Below, piece by piece: positions 11,580 to 21,405 of a stretch of DNA of 36,371 bases. The stretch comes from a virus. The notes under the pieces are model-generated. The model saw only the letters and a list, made by a program, of their open reading frames with translations. It was not told where the DNA came from and did not search any database. Location: the IMG/VR virus record IMGVR_UViG_3300042934_000419, positions 1-36,371 of that record. The stretch is one strand, 5' to 3'. The first letter of the stretch is position 1, and the number at the start of each line of letters is the position of its first letter. Made by a program: the position numbers and the translations under genes.

Positions 11580-11927
11580 TTGGAAAGAGCTAAAATTTTA
11601 GTCCGACTAATTAAAGAAAAAGGCTATCCAAGTAATAGAGCCTTTGCTGAAGAGATAGGCATTCCCCCTACTACTCTTCAATCCATGCTATCCCGAGGAA
11701 TCGGAAAGGCCTCAGTCGATAATGTAATTAAAATATGCCGTGCTTTGGGGATTACTGTAGATGAACTGCAAGAAATGTCTAAGAAAAGCGAAGAAGAGAG
11801 TCTTGCCGAAATTCAAACTATAGCTGCACATCATGACGGTTATGAATGGACTGAGGAAGAATTACAGGAGATTGAAAATTTCAAAAAATATGTCCGTTCT
11901 AGAAATAATCACGATACTAACAAGTAA
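11580..11927 (+). CDS. CI-like XRE repressor (short, ImmR-type)
   Basis: A 115-residue repressor with an N-terminal XRE helix-turn-helix (NRAFAEEIGIPPTTLQSMLS, then NVIKICRALGITVDELQEM) and an acidic C-terminal tail. There is no LexA-type autocleavage domain, and an ImmA-like protease gene follows, so induction probably works by proteolysis as in ICEBs1 or phi105-like systems. The TTG at 11580 is the first in-frame start after a stop at 11574-11576. An ATG at 11573 opens a separate 6-codon frame (MKIGKS) that overlaps this start. Confidence 0.85.
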   Translation: MERAKILVRLIKEKGYPSNRAFAEEIGIPPTTLQSMLSRGIGKASVDNVIKICRALGITVDELQEMSKKSEEESLAEIQTIAAHHDGYEWTEEELQEIENFKKYVRSRNNHDTNK

Positions 11928-11947: not shown

Positions 11948-12418
11948 ATGCTTTATGATCTATTGCTGCAAAAAGCCAATCAGATGCTAGTAGAGGTCAT
12001 AGAGCGACCCTTGAAAGGCAAGCTAAAAGGGATATACGCTGATGGGGTGATTTGCATTGATAGTAGAATCGAGACAAGAACAGAGAAAGCATGCAAATTA
12101 GCAGAGGAGATCGGGCACCATGAAACAAGCTCTGGTGACATAATCCTTCAAGAATCCATCATTAGTCGGAAACAAGAAAAAAGGGCTAGAAATTGGGGTT
12201 ACGAAGAATTGGTTCCATTATCCGCCTTTCTTATTGGTCACGAAGCGGGAGTTCGTAACATCTATGAGTTTGCAGAATTGCTTGGTGTAACTGATGAATT
12301 CCTAATAAACGCAATTGATCATTACTGGGAAGTTTACGGGACATGCACTTTATATAAACATCAGAATGACGAATACATAATTTACTTCGATCCTATCGCA
12401 GTAATTAAAATATTTTAA
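11948..12418 (+). CDS. ImmA/IrrE-family metallopeptidase
   Basis: A 156-residue protein with the zinc-protease-like motif LAEEIGHHETSSGDI (the family's H-E-x-x-H region in its common EEIGHH form). It is next to the CI-like repressor, the standard ImmR-ImmA pairing. The role by family is to cleave or inactivate the repressor to allow prophage induction. AGGAG precedes the ATG, 20 bases after the repressor stop. Confidence 0.83.
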   Translation: MLYDLLLQKANQMLVEVIERPLKGKLKGIYADGVICIDSRIETRTEKACKLAEEIGHHETSSGDIILQESIISRKQEKRARNWGYEELVPLSAFLIGHEAGVRNIYEFAELLGVTDEFLINAIDHYWEVYGTCTLYKHQNDEYIIYFDPIAVIKIF

Positions 12419-12502: not shown

Positions 12503-13705
12503 ATGGGAAGAAATTCAAAAAAGGAAGTTAAGTATCCTGGTGTTCGCGAAAAAAATGGACGCTTCACCTACCGATATAGTGTTTCTATTCCTGGAGAAAA
12601 GGGAAGAAAGCAAAAAGAAACACCGTCTTTCCCTACTGCCAAAGAGGCGTTTGAAGCTGGGGTAAAAATAAAAGCACAACTTTTAAACGGAACTTATATC
12701 GAGGAGAAAGACATCATTTTTGATGATTTCGCTGCTGAGTGGCTCAAAATGTATGAAGCTACAGGCAAAGTAAAGAATACCACTGTTGATATTCGAATGA
12801 GAGAATTGAGAAAGTGCAAGAAGTATTTTGGTCATAGGAAAATAGGCGATATCACTAAACGCGATTATCAAATGATGCTGGATGATCAAAAGAAGCAAGA
12901 GTATTCCATAAATTCAATCAAGTTATTACATTCAGCATGTTCTCTTGTCTTCAAAAAAGCTGTTGAACTAGAGATGATAAAATCTGATCCTACTTCAGGA
13001 GTCCAGATGCCGTCATACCAAACTACCGTTCATGATTTAGAAAACAGAACAGAAATTCCTAAATACATGGAAAAGGAGGAATTAGCGCGTTTTCTTAATT
13101 CGGTAAAGACTATCGGGGATAGGCAAGACTATAATATGTTTTTCCTCATCGCCTATACTGGAATGAGAATCGGGGAAATGAATGCTTTAAACAAAAACAA
13201 AGATATTAATCGACAGGAAAAGTATATTTCAATAACAAAAACCCTGTATATTAAGAAAAAGATAAAGGAGTACATCATTAACACCCCGAAAACTAAAGCA
13301 TCTCGTCGAGAAATTGACGTCACGGACAGTGTAATAAAAGTCGTCGATGATCAAATCGCTTGGCTCAATGAATATAAGATGGCACACCGGAAGACATTTT
13401 ATGATGGTGGATTCCTCTTTATTAATACCAGAAGAAATAAAGGTTACCCAGAGGCACAGTCCAACATAACCACCAGAATGAAAACTTACCTTCAGCATGC
13501 AGGCCTACCATCAACACTGACACCGCACAGTTTACGTCACACTCATGTTTCATTATTGGCTGAGATCGGGGTTGATATAGAGACCATCCAGAAACGGATG
13601 GGCCACAGCAGTGATGAAGTAACCCGGCTCATCTATCTTCACGTCACTAAAAAAAGACGAAAAGAAGCTCCTGAAAAATTCGATTTGCTTATGAGTGAAT
13701 TATAG
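12503..13705 (+). CDS. int: phage integrase, tyrosine recombinase family
   Basis: A 400-residue integrase. An N-terminal AP2-like arm-binding domain (KYPGVREKNGRFTYRYSVSI) is followed by a SAM-like core-binding domain (about 70-170) and a catalytic domain. Catalytic residues visible are R222 (AYTGMRIGE), H342 and R345 (TPHSLRHTH), H368 (KRMGHSS) and the nucleophile Y378 (RLIYLHV). GGAAAGGAGGTGA precedes the ATG. It completes the plus-strand lysogeny block and is followed by the probable attachment region. Confidence 0.92.
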   Translation: MGRNSKKEVKYPGVREKNGRFTYRYSVSIPGEKGRKQKETPSFPTAKEAFEAGVKIKAQLLNGTYIEEKDIIFDDFAAEWLKMYEATGKVKNTTVDIRMRELRKCKKYFGHRKIGDITKRDYQMMLDDQKKQEYSINSIKLLHSACSLVFKKAVELEMIKSDPTSGVQMPSYQTTVHDLENRTEIPKYMEKEELARFLNSVKTIGDRQDYNMFFLIAYTGMRIGEMNALNKNKDINRQEKYISITKTLYIKKKIKEYIINTPKTKASRREIDVTDSVIKVVDDQIAWLNEYKMAHRKTFYDGGFLFINTRRNKGYPEAQSNITTRMKTYLQHAGLPSTLTPHSLRHTHVSLLAEIGVDIETIQKRMGHSSDEVTRLIYLHVTKKRRKEAPEKFDLLMSEL

Positions 13706-15000: not shown

Positions 15001-15393
15001 TCATTTCAGCAGCTGCCCGATCTCAGCCGTATATGCGGTAAGCCGCAGGCTGATCTGGGTCCTCATCACGTCACGCGTCATTCCAAACCGCTCTTGGTAT
15101 CCCCGGAAATAAATCATGTAGTACAACAAAAAATCCTCATTGGCATCATCCACCACCTTAATGTTCCTACGCTTCAGTTCCTGCTTCAGCTTATATATGT
15201 CGGCCATGATCCGCTGCTGCAGATACCGTCCGGCCAGTAAGTAGGTTTGCTTCAGTACATTTCCTGAACGTTCGATTTCCTCGATGCTGTTACCTACCAT
15301 CGTATCTATGTAGGGCAGCAGGATCAAATCCCGTACCATTTCCCGCTCCTTATTGCTTAACATCGTGCTGCTGTATGTATGCTGGTCGCTCAC
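15001..15393 (-). CDS. hypothetical protein with LexA-type box at its promoter
   Basis: A 130-residue helical protein (GTG start read as Met, SDQHTYSSTMLSNKEREMVR; C-terminal YYMIYFRGYQERFGMTRDVM). GGAGGCG sits before GTG 15393. It has its own promoter: a TATAAT -10 at 15414-15419 with a GAAC-N4-GTTC box directly upstream. It is separated from the lysis operon by a terminator. I do not assign a function. DNA-damage-controlled expression is the main clue. Confidence 0.7.
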   Translation of the reverse strand: MSDQHTYSSTMLSNKEREMVRDLILLPYIDTMVGNSIEEIERSGNVLKQTYLLAGRYLQQRIMADIYKLKQELKRRNIKVVDDANEDFLLYYMIYFRGYQERFGMTRDVMRTQISLRLTAYTAEIGQLLK

Positions 15394-15421: not shown

Positions 15422-15435
15422 CGAACAAATGTTCT
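15422..15435. promoter_or_regulatory. LexA (SOS)-type box in promoter
   Basis: CGAACAAATGTTCT matches CGAACRNRYGTTYC at 13 of 14 positions. It lies 3 bases upstream of the TATAAT box for the 15001-15393 gene, a position where LexA would block RNA polymerase. An exact DnaA-box sequence TTATCCACA adjoins it (15437-15445). Confidence 0.55.
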
Positions 15436-15446
15436 TTTATCCACAC

Positions 15447-15536: not shown

Positions 15537-15752
15537 TCACTCTTTGTCCGTGTATCCCTTGCCGGCCTCCGGATTGCTGACGATCCCCAGAACAACCAGA
15601 ATCCCCAGGATAGCATTCACCGCCGCTGTAGCCTCGTCATACTTCTCCGGGGCGAACTGTACTCCGAAGATTACTCCAACAGTCTGAACACCCAGCAGCA
15701 CTGCTGCCGTCAGGGATACCCACATACCATAGTTCCGCCATTTGCTGTTCAT
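15537..15752 (-). CDS. holin, phi-LC3 type
   Basis: A 71-residue membrane protein with two transmembrane segments (about 10-30 and 43-60; NAILGILVVLGIVSNPEAGK is the second segment and its exit) and a charged C-terminus (GYTDKE). The segment with the NP-E-x-GKG ending is typical of phi-LC3/Phage_holin_1 holins. GGGAGGA precedes the ATG inside the end of the endolysin gene. It forms the membrane lesion that releases the endolysin. Confidence 0.85.
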   Translation of the reverse strand: MNSKWRNYGMWVSLTAAVLLGVQTVGVIFGVQFAPEKYDEATAAVNAILGILVVLGIVSNPEAGKGYTDKE

Positions 15753-17476: not shown

Positions 17477-17503
17477 AAAAAGACACGCCCCGAAGGACGT
17501 GCC
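17477..17503 (-). terminator. recombinase terminator
   Basis: On the minus strand GGCACGTCC-TTCG-GGGCGTGTC is followed by TTTTT: a near-perfect 9-bp stem with a TTCG tetraloop. It lies right after the recombinase gene, so recombinase transcripts should stop before the lysis genes. Confidence 0.85.
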
Positions 17504-17509
17504 TGAATT

Positions 17510-18502
17510 TTACTGAACCAGATATCGTTTATGTTGTTCCCGCTTCCGGTCTTCGGTGATCCGGGCGTAACGCAGGGTGGTCTGTGGATCTGAATGCCCC
17601 ATGAGTTCCTGGACTGCAACCAGCTCAGCACCATTGTTCAGAGTCAGCGTTGCGAAGGTGTGCCGCAGGACATGTGGGCTTACCTTATCCTGCAGGCCAG
17701 CTGCCCGGGCAATGACGGCAATCTCCCGCTGAATGGCACGCTTGGTCAGGCGACGGTGCGGCTTACGCTCTGTCACCATAAGAGCTTCGCAATCATCTGT
17801 GCGGGATTTTAAATACTTCGTCAGATGGTACATTGCTTTGAATGAGAAATAAACCTCACGCTCTTTGTTCCCCTTACCGATCACTCGGCAGCTCATGGAC
17901 TGATGGTTAATGCCGTCTCGGTCCATGCCGTATACCTCTGACAACCGACAGCCGGTTGCATACATTACCTCGATAAACGCCCGCTGCCGGACCGTCCTGC
18001 AAGCTTCCCGCAGCATCTCCAGCTCAGGGATCGTCAGGGCCTTCGGCAGCCTCTTTTCCAGCTTAGGAGTTTTCAGCTTCGCCGATGGGTCCCGGGGTAA
18101 TATCTCCTCCGCTGTTAACCAGCCGAAGAAGCTTTTCAGCACAGACAGTTTCTTCCCGATCGTGCTCATTTTCAGGTGACTAAACTGTCCCAGGTAAGCC
18201 CGGATGTCGGCTGCTGTAACGTTGTCTGTTCGCTTGCGGACATGCCGGAAGAATATGTGTAGGTCCAGTGCATATCCGTCCAGCGTGGACGAGCTGAGAC
18301 CTTCCAGCCGCTTGGATGAAAGAAACATAGTAATCTTCTCGGCTCCGTCCGGGTGTGGCTCGTCCTCCTCCACCCGCTGCACATGATATTTCGATACTAC
18401 TACGGAAAGCAGAGACTTTGTCCGCTCCGCATTCAAATCAGGAAACGCGTCATAAATCACGGCCACGACATCGGACAATAGTTGCTCGCTTGCATTAATC
18501 AA
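17510..18502 (-). CDS. second tyrosine recombinase (XerC/XerD-like)
   Basis: A 330-residue recombinase. An N-terminal SAM-like domain (about 55-135, LEGLSSSTLDGYALDLHIFF) precedes a full catalytic set: R186 (YATGCRLSEV), K210 (IGKGNKEREV), H277 and R280 (SPHVLRHTFAT), H303 (ELMGHSD) and Y312 (LRYARI). It lacks the AP2-like arm domain of the integrase at 12503 and resembles Xer proteins. The TTG at 18502 has GGAGGTG 7 bases upstream (GTG 18511 is an alternative). It lies between the receptor-binding and lysis genes, divergent from an XRE gene, with three operator-like palindromes between them. Roles could be dimer resolution, a second integration system, or DNA rearrangement near the tail gene. 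Confidence 0.9.
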   Translation of the reverse strand: MINASEQLLSDVVAVIYDAFPDLNAERTKSLLSVVVSKYHVQRVEEDEPHPDGAEKITMFLSSKRLEGLSSSTLDGYALDLHIFFRHVRKRTDNVTAADIRAYLGQFSHLKMSTIGKKLSVLKSFFGWLTAEEILPRDPSAKLKTPKLEKRLPKALTIPELEMLREACRTVRQRAFIEVMYATGCRLSEVYGMDRDGINHQSMSCRVIGKGNKEREVYFSFKAMYHLTKYLKSRTDDCEALMVTERKPHRRLTKRAIQREIAVIARAAGLQDKVSPHVLRHTFATLTLNNGAELVAVQELMGHSDPQTTLRYARITEDRKREQHKRYLVQ

Positions 18503-18520
18503 GTCCAGCACCTCCGCAAT

Positions 18521-18598
18521 TACTCGTTTTTCGTGTAATTTAATAATAACACTACACGATTTTCGAGTATATAGGGCTTTTTACACGTTTTTCGTGTA
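18521..18598. promoter_or_regulatory. triple 17-bp palindromic operators
   Basis: Three near-identical palindromes, consensus TACNCG-WTTTT-CGNGTA: 18521-18537, 18553-18569 and 18582-18598 (the last perfect). Their centres are 32 and 29 bp apart, about three helical turns each, so proteins would bind on roughly one face. They fill the gap between the recombinase and the XRE gene. A TATAAT overlaps the third site (18597-18602). They are the probable binding sites of the neighbouring XRE protein. Confidence 0.75.
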
Positions 18599-18622
18599 TA
18601 ATTATTCCCGGAGGTGTGGAGC

Positions 18623-18844
18623 ATGCGAATCAAGTCGAACCTGAAAGTAATTATGGATGCGAGGAATATCAACCCGCTGCAGATGTCAAAAAACATTAAT
18701 TACCGTTATGAATCAGTCAGAATGATGTACAATGACACCGCCAAGCATTATCCGAAGGATCTGCTGCTACTGCTTTGTAAAGAACTGAACGTGACACCTG
18801 GAGATATAATCATAATTGAAGATGAAAAAGAGCCGTCGGATTGA
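18623..18844 (+). CDS. small XRE-type regulator of the second recombinase
   Basis: A 73-residue Cro/CI-type helix-turn-helix protein (MRIKSNLKVIMDARNINPLQ, then KDLLLLLCKELNVTPGDIII). ATG 18623 has GGAGGTG upstream; a GTG at 18614 lies within that ribosome site. It is divergent from the recombinase, with the triple operator between, so it probably represses both. It is the only plus-strand gene in this stretch, and its last codons overlap a bidirectional terminator. Confidence 0.8.
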   Translation: MRIKSNLKVIMDARNINPLQMSKNINYRYESVRMMYNDTAKHYPKDLLLLLCKELNVTPGDIIIIEDEKEPSD

Positions 18845-18861
18845 TCCGGCAGCTCTTTTTT
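18825..18861. terminator. bidirectional terminator between tail gene and XRE
   Basis: AAAAAGAGC..CGGA-TTGA-TCCG..GCTCTTTTTT forms a stem with A- and T-runs on both sides, so it works in both directions. It ends the XRE transcript and the late structural transcript coming from the receptor-binding gene. Confidence 0.85.
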
Positions 18862-18909
18862 AATGCCCGTCTTCTGTTATCGGTAGTGCGCAGTATTCTC
18901 CTACTACGT

Positions 18910-21405
18910 TTAAACCGTGATACCATCTCTTAAAATTGTTAGCCCTATATTTCGGGCGACGTTACGGTAAATTACCCCATACCCAAGATCATTAGGGTGG
19001 ACTTCGTCGGCTATCAAACTATCAATCGAAATCCCTTTTAAATCCGCATAGTCAATGAAGTGATCGTAGTTGGAGATGTAAGGCAGATTATACTCACTTG
19101 CTATCTGACGGATTGTGGTGTCTACAGTGTGCATTTTGAAATACACACTCGCATTATCTTGAGCAACACTCGTTGGATTGGCACTCATTAAAATAATATC
19201 TTTGTCCAGCGCGTGAACATAGTCGATTACATAGCGAAGAAACATCTTTGATGCTTCAGGTGCGTTCAGATACGACCTATCATTTGTACCAATCTGCAAC
19301 ACAACAATATCATCCGTTGATTCAACGAGAGTAGCGACATTCTGGTAAATCCACTCCGAAGTAATACCACTTACACCCCAATTCTTTACCGTTGCAGTTT
19401 TTGGTAATTTGATTGCTTCTAGGTAAAGGGTTTTAGCTGTGCTGCTTGCATTTTTCCGATTCGTTTGTTTCAATTCGACGGTGTGATTGGCAAGGGCTAA
19501 CCCTGTAAACTGGGTTTCGTTTTGGTAACTGAATACACCATAAGCGTCTATCTCGGCTAGTTCAACACCATCAACCCACACTTCCATGATACCAGAATCC
19601 GGTGTTATCGCATGAATGACTGCAAAATGATCGCCATAGAAATCAAATGTAATGGATTGGTCTGTGAATGTATTCGGGGTGGAAAACAACCATTTTAGGA
19701 TGGCTGCTCCGTCATAACCTAATGTGCCTTGACTTATGGTATTGGTAATACTTGGATGATTCAGCGCGACAATGACCTCTTTATTAAAATTATCAATGAT
19801 GTTATTGCGGAGCATATTCGCCCAACATGTCGCCGTTGTTAAATTTGCTCTTTGTCCCGTTGTGCCGATTAGCTCGCCTGTTGCACTATATCCCGTTCCT
19901 GCTACCCCCGCTGTTATGCTGTCGCCCAGACATTTTATATTCGTGCGAACAAAGGGGTTGTTGAGTGATCGAAGTATGTCCTGCAAAACGCCTATTCTTT
20001 CAGAGGATAGAGAGTTTGTTATTGAAGAGAGTTCGATTACGTCATTATTAAAATCATCGAGATTATGATACCTATCAAAGTTTTCGTAAGGTGTTGAGAC
20101 GTTTCCCAATTCTAGCTGCAGTGTATTCAGATTAGTTATCTCGTCACAAATTCTTACATAGGCAGCGTTAGAAGGTGTGGTGAACGATTCGCCTGAATTA
20201 ACTCCGCTTATATATACCCGACTGGCATCATAGAAGGCGAACTGCTGTATATTATTTTTTCTGTATCCGGTGCTCGCTGACACTGGAATATAGTCAGAAG
20301 CAAAGAATCCAGCGTTTACTACCAACAGCCCGTTGGCGCTATTCACGTAGCGGCCGTTTGTAACCGTGGATTTGTTAAATAAGTTTTTGCTTGCTTTACC
20401 TATGACAGGCTTCGAAGTCGGCAAAAAATCATCCACGTTAATATATGGATTAAATTGTTGATAAGACGTTCGAGCGTTTCCGAGTTCCACCTGTTCAATG
20501 TCCAACAGAGCGCTTGTAACGGTGACTCTCATATAGGCAGCGCCGGCGGGAGTAGTAAATGTATATGCGCTAGGGCTCGCTAAACCAGATATAAACACTT
20601 TCGAACTATCATAAAAAGCACATTGAAGATTATCCGTCTTCGAATATTGAGTACTAGCAGCTACAGGAATATAGTCACTTGCAATAAATCCAGCATTTGC
20701 TAGTGCTTCACCAGTTACATTGTCGATATAATACCCAGTTGTGACCGTTAGCTTATCAAACAGGTTTTTACTCGCAACCCCTTTGATAACAGGAAACGCA
20801 AACTGCTTCGGAAGCAAACTATAATCAGCGGGTATTGCATTTATTTCTGTCGTACCCGCTATTTGCGCCAGAAATTCCGGAGACATATAGGTCTGGTCTA
20901 AGAGTCCCCTTGTCTTGTCAATTTGAGTCACTCCGATATTTCCCGTTTTGTCCAGCTTATCAATTTCCAAACTTTCCACTCGATCCTTGGTGATGTTCAA
21001 GTCTGTCTGATTCGCCTTTTCCGCCAACTGCGCAGCAAGGCCATCCCGCTCCGTATCCAATCTGGACTTGAGTGTAGGGTATGTTGTGCCGGTTGAGCTG
21101 ACACGCGCCTGATCGGCAGCAGGGCTGCTGTCACCAGATACGACTGCTGTGTCAAACTGTTCCTGCAGGCTGTCCGCTGCCGCCTTCATGTTCCCGGCGC
21201 CGGCTACTTTTCCGGTATATACAATGTGCTCAGCAGCATGGGCGGCAGTGGAGTCCTTGTGCTGGGTTACCTCAGCCTGAATGCCTTCTGAGACAGCTGT
21301 CGCGGCATCCAGCTCAGATTCAACGTTATCAAATCCTGTTTCTATTCGATCATAGGTTTCACTGATTGGCTCCTGCCCCGGAAGGCTCATGTACCGGTTC
21401 GGCAT
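18910..21405 (-). CDS. receptor-binding tail protein with SGNH hydrolase domain
   Basis: An 831-residue protein. Residues 1-200 are helical and tail-attachment-like. Residues 207-327 and 333-452 are two copies of one beta-type module (ASKNLF..., GF(I/F)ASDYIPV(A/S)AST, AFYD(S/A)S(K/R)V(F/Y)ISG, ELGN..(T/S)(S/P)Y). Residues 488-825 form an SGNH/GDSL hydrolase: block I GDSITAG (Ser496), block III GTND (706-709), block V DEVHPND (D800, H803), with an inserted beta domain at about 575-665. It probably binds and deacylates a host surface polymer. The ATG has AAAGGAG upstream. Confidence 0.85.
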   Translation of the reverse strand: MPNRYMSLPGQEPISETYDRIETGFDNVESELDAATAVSEGIQAEVTQHKDSTAAHAAEHIVYTGKVAGAGNMKAAADSLQEQFDTAVVSGDSSPAADQARVSSTGTTYPTLKSRLDTERDGLAAQLAEKANQTDLNITKDRVESLEIDKLDKTGNIGVTQIDKTRGLLDQTYMSPEFLAQIAGTTEINAIPADYSLLPKQFAFPVIKGVASKNLFDKLTVTTGYYIDNVTGEALANAGFIASDYIPVAASTQYSKTDNLQCAFYDSSKVFISGLASPSAYTFTTPAGAAYMRVTVTSALLDIEQVELGNARTSYQQFNPYINVDDFLPTSKPVIGKASKNLFNKSTVTNGRYVNSANGLLVVNAGFFASDYIPVSASTGYRKNNIQQFAFYDASRVYISGVNSGESFTTPSNAAYVRICDEITNLNTLQLELGNVSTPYENFDRYHNLDDFNNDVIELSSITNSLSSERIGVLQDILRSLNNPFVRTNIKCLGDSITAGVAGTGYSATGELIGTTGQRANLTTATCWANMLRNNIIDNFNKEVIVALNHPSITNTISQGTLGYDGAAILKWLFSTPNTFTDQSITFDFYGDHFAVIHAITPDSGIMEVWVDGVELAEIDAYGVFSYQNETQFTGLALANHTVELKQTNRKNASSTAKTLYLEAIKLPKTATVKNWGVSGITSEWIYQNVATLVESTDDIVVLQIGTNDRSYLNAPEASKMFLRYVIDYVHALDKDIILMSANPTSVAQDNASVYFKMHTVDTTIRQIASEYNLPYISNYDHFIDYADLKGISIDSLIADEVHPNDLGYGVIYRNVARNIGLTILRDGITV

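Follow-up and report, generated by a model that had tools for sequence, protein, structure and literature searches.

The window analysed here is the whole of a 36.4-kb temperate phage record (IMGVR_UViG_3300042934_000419, positions 1 to 36,371), and the 32-bp terminal direct repeat that it carries indicates that the phage genome is probably complete. As stated in the initial annotation, the phage already has a normal integrase; a conventional tyrosine integrase is encoded at 12503-13705 on the plus strand (Pfam Phage_integrase, E 1e-24, with Phage_int_M and SAM_3 domains), and Pfam places genes for an HTH protein (11580-11924) and an ImmA-type M78 peptidase (11948-12415) beside it. A tail fibre or receptor-binding protein (RBP) of 831 residues is encoded on the minus strand at 18910-21405 (PHROGs and Pfam). 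Its C-terminus contains a GDSL esterase domain (Pfam), and the two tandem copies of one module reported earlier for this protein can be read directly in its translation ('ASKNLF.K.TVT.G.Y...ASDYIPV.AST.Y.K'). Between the RBP gene and the lysis genes lies a separate module that encodes a second recombinase and its regulator.

The recombinase open reading frame spans 17510-18511 on the minus strand and specifies 333 residues when read from a GTG start, but TTG at 18500-18502 is the likelier initiation codon because it directly follows GGAGGTG and is also the start of a 96%-identical orthologue of 330 residues. The protein has a Phage_integrase domain (Pfam, E 9e-35) together with a SAM-like domain, and matches XerD in the PDB (1a0p, E 2e-39). 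Moreover, residues R189, K213, H280, R283, H306, and Y315 are invariant across 27 recombinase orthologues. Judged by this catalytic R-K-H-R-H/W-Y set, the enzyme is a full-length, Xer-like member of the tyrosine recombinase superfamily, which bears out its earlier description as complete. It falls below the cut-offs of the chromosomal XerC (213.5 bits versus 335) and XerD (210 versus 330) models, and is not of the IntI type (90 bits with the integron integrase model versus a cut-off of 265).

A gene for an XRE regulator, starting with ATG (18623-18844, plus strand; Pfam HTH_26, E 4e-11), diverges from the recombinase gene, and a repeat search locates three operator-like inverted repeats (18520-18537, 18552-18569, and 18581-18598) between the two start codons. 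Operators of the same type are present in the related loci L004 and L012. A scan places one terminator 3' of the recombinase gene (17481-17504, minus strand), and sequence and scan together place another at the end of the XRE gene (approximately 18828-18861), where a symmetrical stem with A and T runs on its sides is probably bidirectional. The divergent regulator, its three operators, and terminators on both sides had all been proposed before, and each is confirmed. From their positions, the terminators of the module plausibly split the late operon; several relatives have no terminator 3' of the recombinase. Elsewhere in the window, two elements lie near the promoter region of the minus-strand gene at 15001-15393: a LexA-like box (AACAAATGTTCTT, 15424-15436) that also occurs in G002 and G015, and, at 15537-15554, a weak match to the XRE operator (78%) that would be its fourth copy.

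Close orthologues of the recombinase are approximately 50-96% identical to it, and identity at the next level drops to approximately 33%. They are found in prophages of Paenibacillus, Shouchella, Halobacillus, Anoxybacillus, Bacillus, Halalkalibacter, and Desulfosporosinus as well as in many viral contigs, and those examined in detail have tail-fibre genes on one side and Prophage_tail or lysis genes on the other. Another integrase is present in at least 13 of the 26 records with an orthologue (a further full-length tyrosine enzyme in six, a serine enzyme in seven), from which it follows that the XerD-like enzyme is a second recombinase. Several tyrosine recombinase genes or fragments are clustered beside the orthologue in L120 (10001-14471), and several of the genomes G002, G004, G006, G007, G008, and G009 encode a short tyrosine-recombinase catalytic-domain protein (183-204 residues) elsewhere.

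The phages with the most similar recombinases were compared by k-mers, and this revealed a 13-mer that they have in common shortly after the RBP stop codon, which led to a recombination site conserved in 20 recombinase-bearing loci. In the window this 3' site (18883-18909, minus strand) begins directly after the RBP stop codon and consists of a degenerate left arm, ACGTAGT (18903-18909), the spacer AGGAGAAT (18895-18902), and the right arm ACTGCGCACTAC (18883-18894). The consensus of the 20 loci is a WGGAnnAT spacer followed by the right arm ACTGCGCAnTA, in one orientation throughout; the conserved right arm is ACTGCGCAnTAA, and the spacers vary between phages at two or three positions. In leave-one-out scoring the 3' site is the top match in 17 of the 20 loci, including the window (score 27.7, rank 1), and in the other three it is second to its own array copy. 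A scan of 396 Paenibacillaceae genomes gave 10 exact 3' sites and no occurrence of the reversed pattern used as a control. The site follows immediately after the last RBP, chaperone or cargo gene, with the recombinase gene 218-646 bp downstream (1.9 kb in the L085 array). No clear site accompanies the orthologues L007, L015, and L016 or those of the divergent clade with L101. A group of the L309 type sharing the 20-mer was rejected; in L321, an unrelated phage and the one example examined, the match overlies a terminase-like gene, so that the shared 20-mer is probably a chance identity within one lineage.

A recombinase gene adjoining its own site resembles an int-attP pair, and the 3' site might on these grounds be an attP at which the phage can integrate; an orphan cassette with site-like ends by lon in the chromosome of Paenibacillus sp. 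DMB5 could be read in the same way. Wherever host flanks are visible, however, module and site lie inside prophages, the chromosomal case contains only cassettes and no phage genome, and another integrase is available in at least half of the records surveyed. We therefore attach almost no credence to the second integration mode suggested in the initial annotation, and the recombinase is likewise not a simple replacement acting as the sole integrase.

The RBP gene itself contains the partner of the 3' site. This 5' site (21007-21038, minus strand) is in frame, codes for AQLAEK at residue 125, and comprises the left arm TTGCTGCGCAGT (21027-21038), the spacer TGGCGGAA (21019-21026), and a degenerate right arm (21007-21018); across phages, 5' sites have the conserved left arm TTAnTGCGCAGT and the 8-bp spacer TGGCGGAT. 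Reading the in-frame copy as a right-arm match via CTGCGCAGTT is ruled out by L325 (GCGCAGTTGGACCATACTGCGC), and the in-frame copy is the left arm. Both arms are intact in the 3' site of L325 (GCGCAGT-TGGACCAT-ACTGCGC), which means that the full core consists of inverted arms of approximately 12 bp around an 8-bp spacer, and the 5' and 3' sites taken together give the same 12-8-12 core. Such cores are typical of tyrosine recombinases. The arms are shared out between the two sites, the left being kept in the in-frame site and the right in the 3' site, with the inner arms degenerate; the outer arms belong to the constant phage backbone and the inner, degenerate arms to a cassette. In the window the interval between the sites (18903-21018, minus strand) covers RBP residues from approximately 131 to 831, including the tandem modules and the GDSL esterase domain. 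The two sites are in direct orientation and have unlike, heterospecific spacers (TGGCGGAT versus WGGAnnAT). As for inverted repeats of the shufflon type, there is no convincing pair in the window and one weak inverted match only; this single match to the site model lies inside the RBP cassette (19752-19774, plus strand), scores 18.1 bits, above shuffled sequences, and, having no proper left arm, is probably due to chance.

A 12-8-12 core resembles loxP, and an XerD-like, arm-less protein would suit resolution of phage genome multimers or circularisation, as in Cre/lox or XerCD/dif. Multimer resolution requires one site only, however, and leaves over the second, in-frame site, the arrays of cassettes, and the two-sided breakpoints described below. 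Dimer resolution, another of the roles offered for this module at the outset, accounts neither for the in-frame RBP site nor for the exchanged cassettes, and we regard this type of function as very improbable.

Conservation of the in-frame site is found at the level of the DNA. The codons CAG-TTG are used in 10 of 10 cases picked by protein sequence, for which codon usage gives a probability of approximately 5e-12, and unrelated viral AQLADIA motifs have more than 40 different codings. The 12 nucleotides GCGCAGTTGGCG, or near variants, recur in fibre genes of other phages. In an independent genome sample containing ten sites (nine from the exact scan and one with a mismatch), eight have an in-frame 5' partner upstream in the fibre gene. 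The two sites also coincide with the limits of homology between phages. Two Shouchella prophages in one genome differ solely in the interval between the sites: they have approximately 115 N-terminal fibre residues in common, are then wholly different until the 3' site, and over the 8.1 kb that begins at this site have 99.8% DNA identity; the left boundary in this pair is the DNA coding for AQLA (GCGCAGT-TGGCACAA). Two-sided breakpoints are visible in L013/L014, further phage pairs have the fibre N-terminus in common only up to the 5' site, and L289/L305 have the cassette in common only from the 5' site onward. More generally, the RBP beside the recombinase has a constant N-terminus and a variable C-terminus among related phages. 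These paired sites and exact homology breakpoints strongly support recombination altering the tail gene, which is the one of the three originally suggested roles that has stood.

In recombinase-bearing phages, moreover, the 3' arm of a phage predicts its own in-frame 5' arm (mean 9.6 of 12 positions versus 8.4 when permuted, p=0.00017), as illustrated by L097, in which 5' TACCGCACAGT is paired with 3' ACTGTGCGGTA, and by L090, in which 5' GCGCATT is paired with 3' AATGCGC. Arm divergence also tracks divergence of the recombinase (Mantel r=0.43, p=0.00025), p-values throughout being optimistic because the sequences are related to each other. Mosaicism of fibre genes at linkers is well known, and homologous recombination at the AQLADIA linker and the conserved flanks, with the recombinase as an unrelated neighbour, remains the main rival explanation; exchange partners are indeed homologous in their fibre N-termini and flanks, and many phages carry the sites without the recombinase. 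A protein linker, however, would not be expected to have fixed third-codon positions, inverted-repeat symmetry between the 5' and 3' arms, or covariation with a non-coding 3' site and with a recombinase, and we consider ordinary mosaicism unlikely.

Taken on the evidence of these sequences, the module probably serves the site-specific exchange, between phages, of the C-terminal, receptor-recognising part of the fibre, and the best reading is that this exchange of RBP cassettes would be under repressor or SOS control. In the mechanism that we propose, the exchangeable segment would be bounded by two directly repeated core sites, one (5') in frame within the fibre gene and the other (3') after the last cassette gene. 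The XerD-like recombinase would bind the arms and recombine 5' with 5' and 3' with 3' sites between co-resident phage genomes, so that RBP cassettes would be swapped together with chaperone and surface-modifying cargo genes. Unlike 5' and 3' spacers would disfavour simple deletion, as do heterospecific sites in laboratory recombinase-mediated cassette exchange, and expression of the recombinase would be kept off the late operon, here by the XRE protein and its operators and in relatives by a different repressor, a LexA-type box or structured RNA in the leader. Within this scheme we infer catalysis by the XerD-like enzyme, the choice of partner, timing at induction, and an effect on host range.

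Several observations count against exchange by this enzyme. The 5' and 3' spacers are unlike and the 3' spacers vary between phages, whereas many tyrosine recombinases require spacer identity. A few orthologues have no clear site. In addition, many phages have both sites and no close orthologue of the recombinase, implying that the enzyme is used in trans, has been lost, or is replaced by another. A different recombinase, from the host or from other phages, might then use the sites, with the XerD-like family as one user or a non-functional neighbour; 17 of 18 tested site-bearing viral records have no close orthologue, and only distant tyrosine recombinases are present in 11. No other conserved recombinase was found beside the sites, however, and the arm sequence tracks the divergence of the XerD-like family, which makes it quite improbable that the sites belong to another enzyme.

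Beyond the RBP C-terminus and a chaperone-like protein of approximately 90 residues, the cassettes frequently encode one further protein: an acyltransferase-3, EpsG, PMT_2-type glycosyltransferase, GT2 or hexapeptide acyltransferase protein or one with a weak Wzy_C match. Such cargo may convert the receptor or exclude superinfecting phages in a manner matched to the RBP. Small second cassettes bounded by sites are present in L004 (6763-7354), L084 (4920-5272), and L085 (8100-8737); they are homologous and contain a gene that we label RHH-like from a reading of its sequence. Their last 90 bp or so, preceding the site, are conserved and may form an accessory or attC-like element. The orphan in the chromosome of Paenibacillus sp. 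DMB5 (L367, 3224-6828) comprises an RBP C-terminal cassette, a membrane-protein gene, and an RHH-like mini-cassette, with no other phage genes around, and has lon on one side and a gene read as lonB on the other; two prophages of this strain encode the recombinase. An exact empty chromosomal site was not found for the orphan cassette by lon, relatives carrying a different sequence of 92 bp (or 1425 bp) at this position. The orphan cassette nevertheless hints that cassettes may move on their own. A wider reading, which is possible but which we put forward tentatively, is that of a natural cassette-exchange network in which many Bacillota phages would use one standard heterospecific site pair, in frame in the fibre gene and behind it, to trade cassettes of a standard format that combine RBP domains with matching surface-modification genes, a subset supplying the recombinase in trans and excised cassettes being parked in the host chromosome.

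Control of the recombinase varies from the XRE protein and three operators of the window to other repressors in other phages. A LexA-type box lies upstream of the recombinase in 12 of 33 loci, compared to 2.7% by chance. Eight loci (L010, L013, L015, L016, L018, L088, L094, and L096) have a conserved structured leader approximately 130 bp upstream of the recombinase start, with an intrinsic terminator and a covarying hairpin, some of the covarying pairs being formed between a loop and the ribosome-binding site; this leader is a candidate new cis-regulatory RNA. Rfam at gathering thresholds gives no match in the window module or in the leaders of L010, L013, L015, L016, L018, L088, and L101. 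A second, different conserved leader (GAAAGCACCCGTCC.TAGCCTG.CAGC..GAGTGCT..ACACCGGAG) is seen upstream of the recombinase in L101, L103, and L105 of the divergent clade. That one gene is under so many different dedicated controls suggests that its switching must be independent of the late operon, and induction, at which several prophages would wake together, may be the moment for it.

Among known systems, the Rin shufflon of Bifidobacterium prophages works within a single phage, where several stored segments for the RBP C-terminus are inverted at rix repeats of 11 bp (PMC6109161). Like the module studied here, it has a phage XerD-like tyrosine recombinase without an arm-binding domain beside the RBP gene, a separate integrase, and an RBP C-terminus that is varied behind a constant N-terminus (PMC6109161). 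The present phages, in contrast, usually have one segment, which lies between two 12-8-12 cores that point the same way and differ in their spacers. Their cassettes include cargo genes, the recombinase has control of its own by a divergent XRE repressor or another dedicated system, and the proposed exchange is between phages; inverted sites of the Rin type with stored alternative RBP C-termini were not found in the window. The system is therefore Rin-like in function and different in its direct, heterospecific in-frame site pair and mobile cargo cassettes. A literature search with the site sequence, with most subscription papers outside its scope, returned no relevant paper, and Rin alone was relevant. 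Integrons (IntI, attI, attC) resemble the present system in the tyrosine recombinase next to a site of recombination, in the site at the end of every cassette, in the occurrence of short tandem arrays (here L004, L084, and L085), and in the many site-bearing elements without the enzyme. The present enzyme, however, is not IntI, as its model score shows, and the cassette here supplies the remainder of an open reading frame. Laboratory cassette exchange that uses heterospecific or half-mutant lox or FRT sites also has direct sites of unlike spacer on either side of the cassette, with the weak arms facing the cassette and the good arms facing the backbone; the system described here is natural. 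Finally, the Gin, Cin, and Min systems share the purpose of tail fibre variation, but employ serine recombinases and inverted sites in one phage genome rather than a tyrosine recombinase and direct sites.

Tail-fibre mosaicism is usually ascribed to chance homology. If the exchange proposed here takes place, RBP exchange would be programmed, with a defined site pair and its own recombinase under separate control, receptor-binding modules would have exact and predictable boundaries across Bacillota phages, and the fixation of the VDAQLADIA-like fibre motif at the DNA level would be explained. Moreover, RBP domains are repeatedly accompanied by acyltransferases, EpsG- or Wzy-like proteins, and glycosyltransferases, which suggests that recognition and alteration of the receptor travel as one unit.
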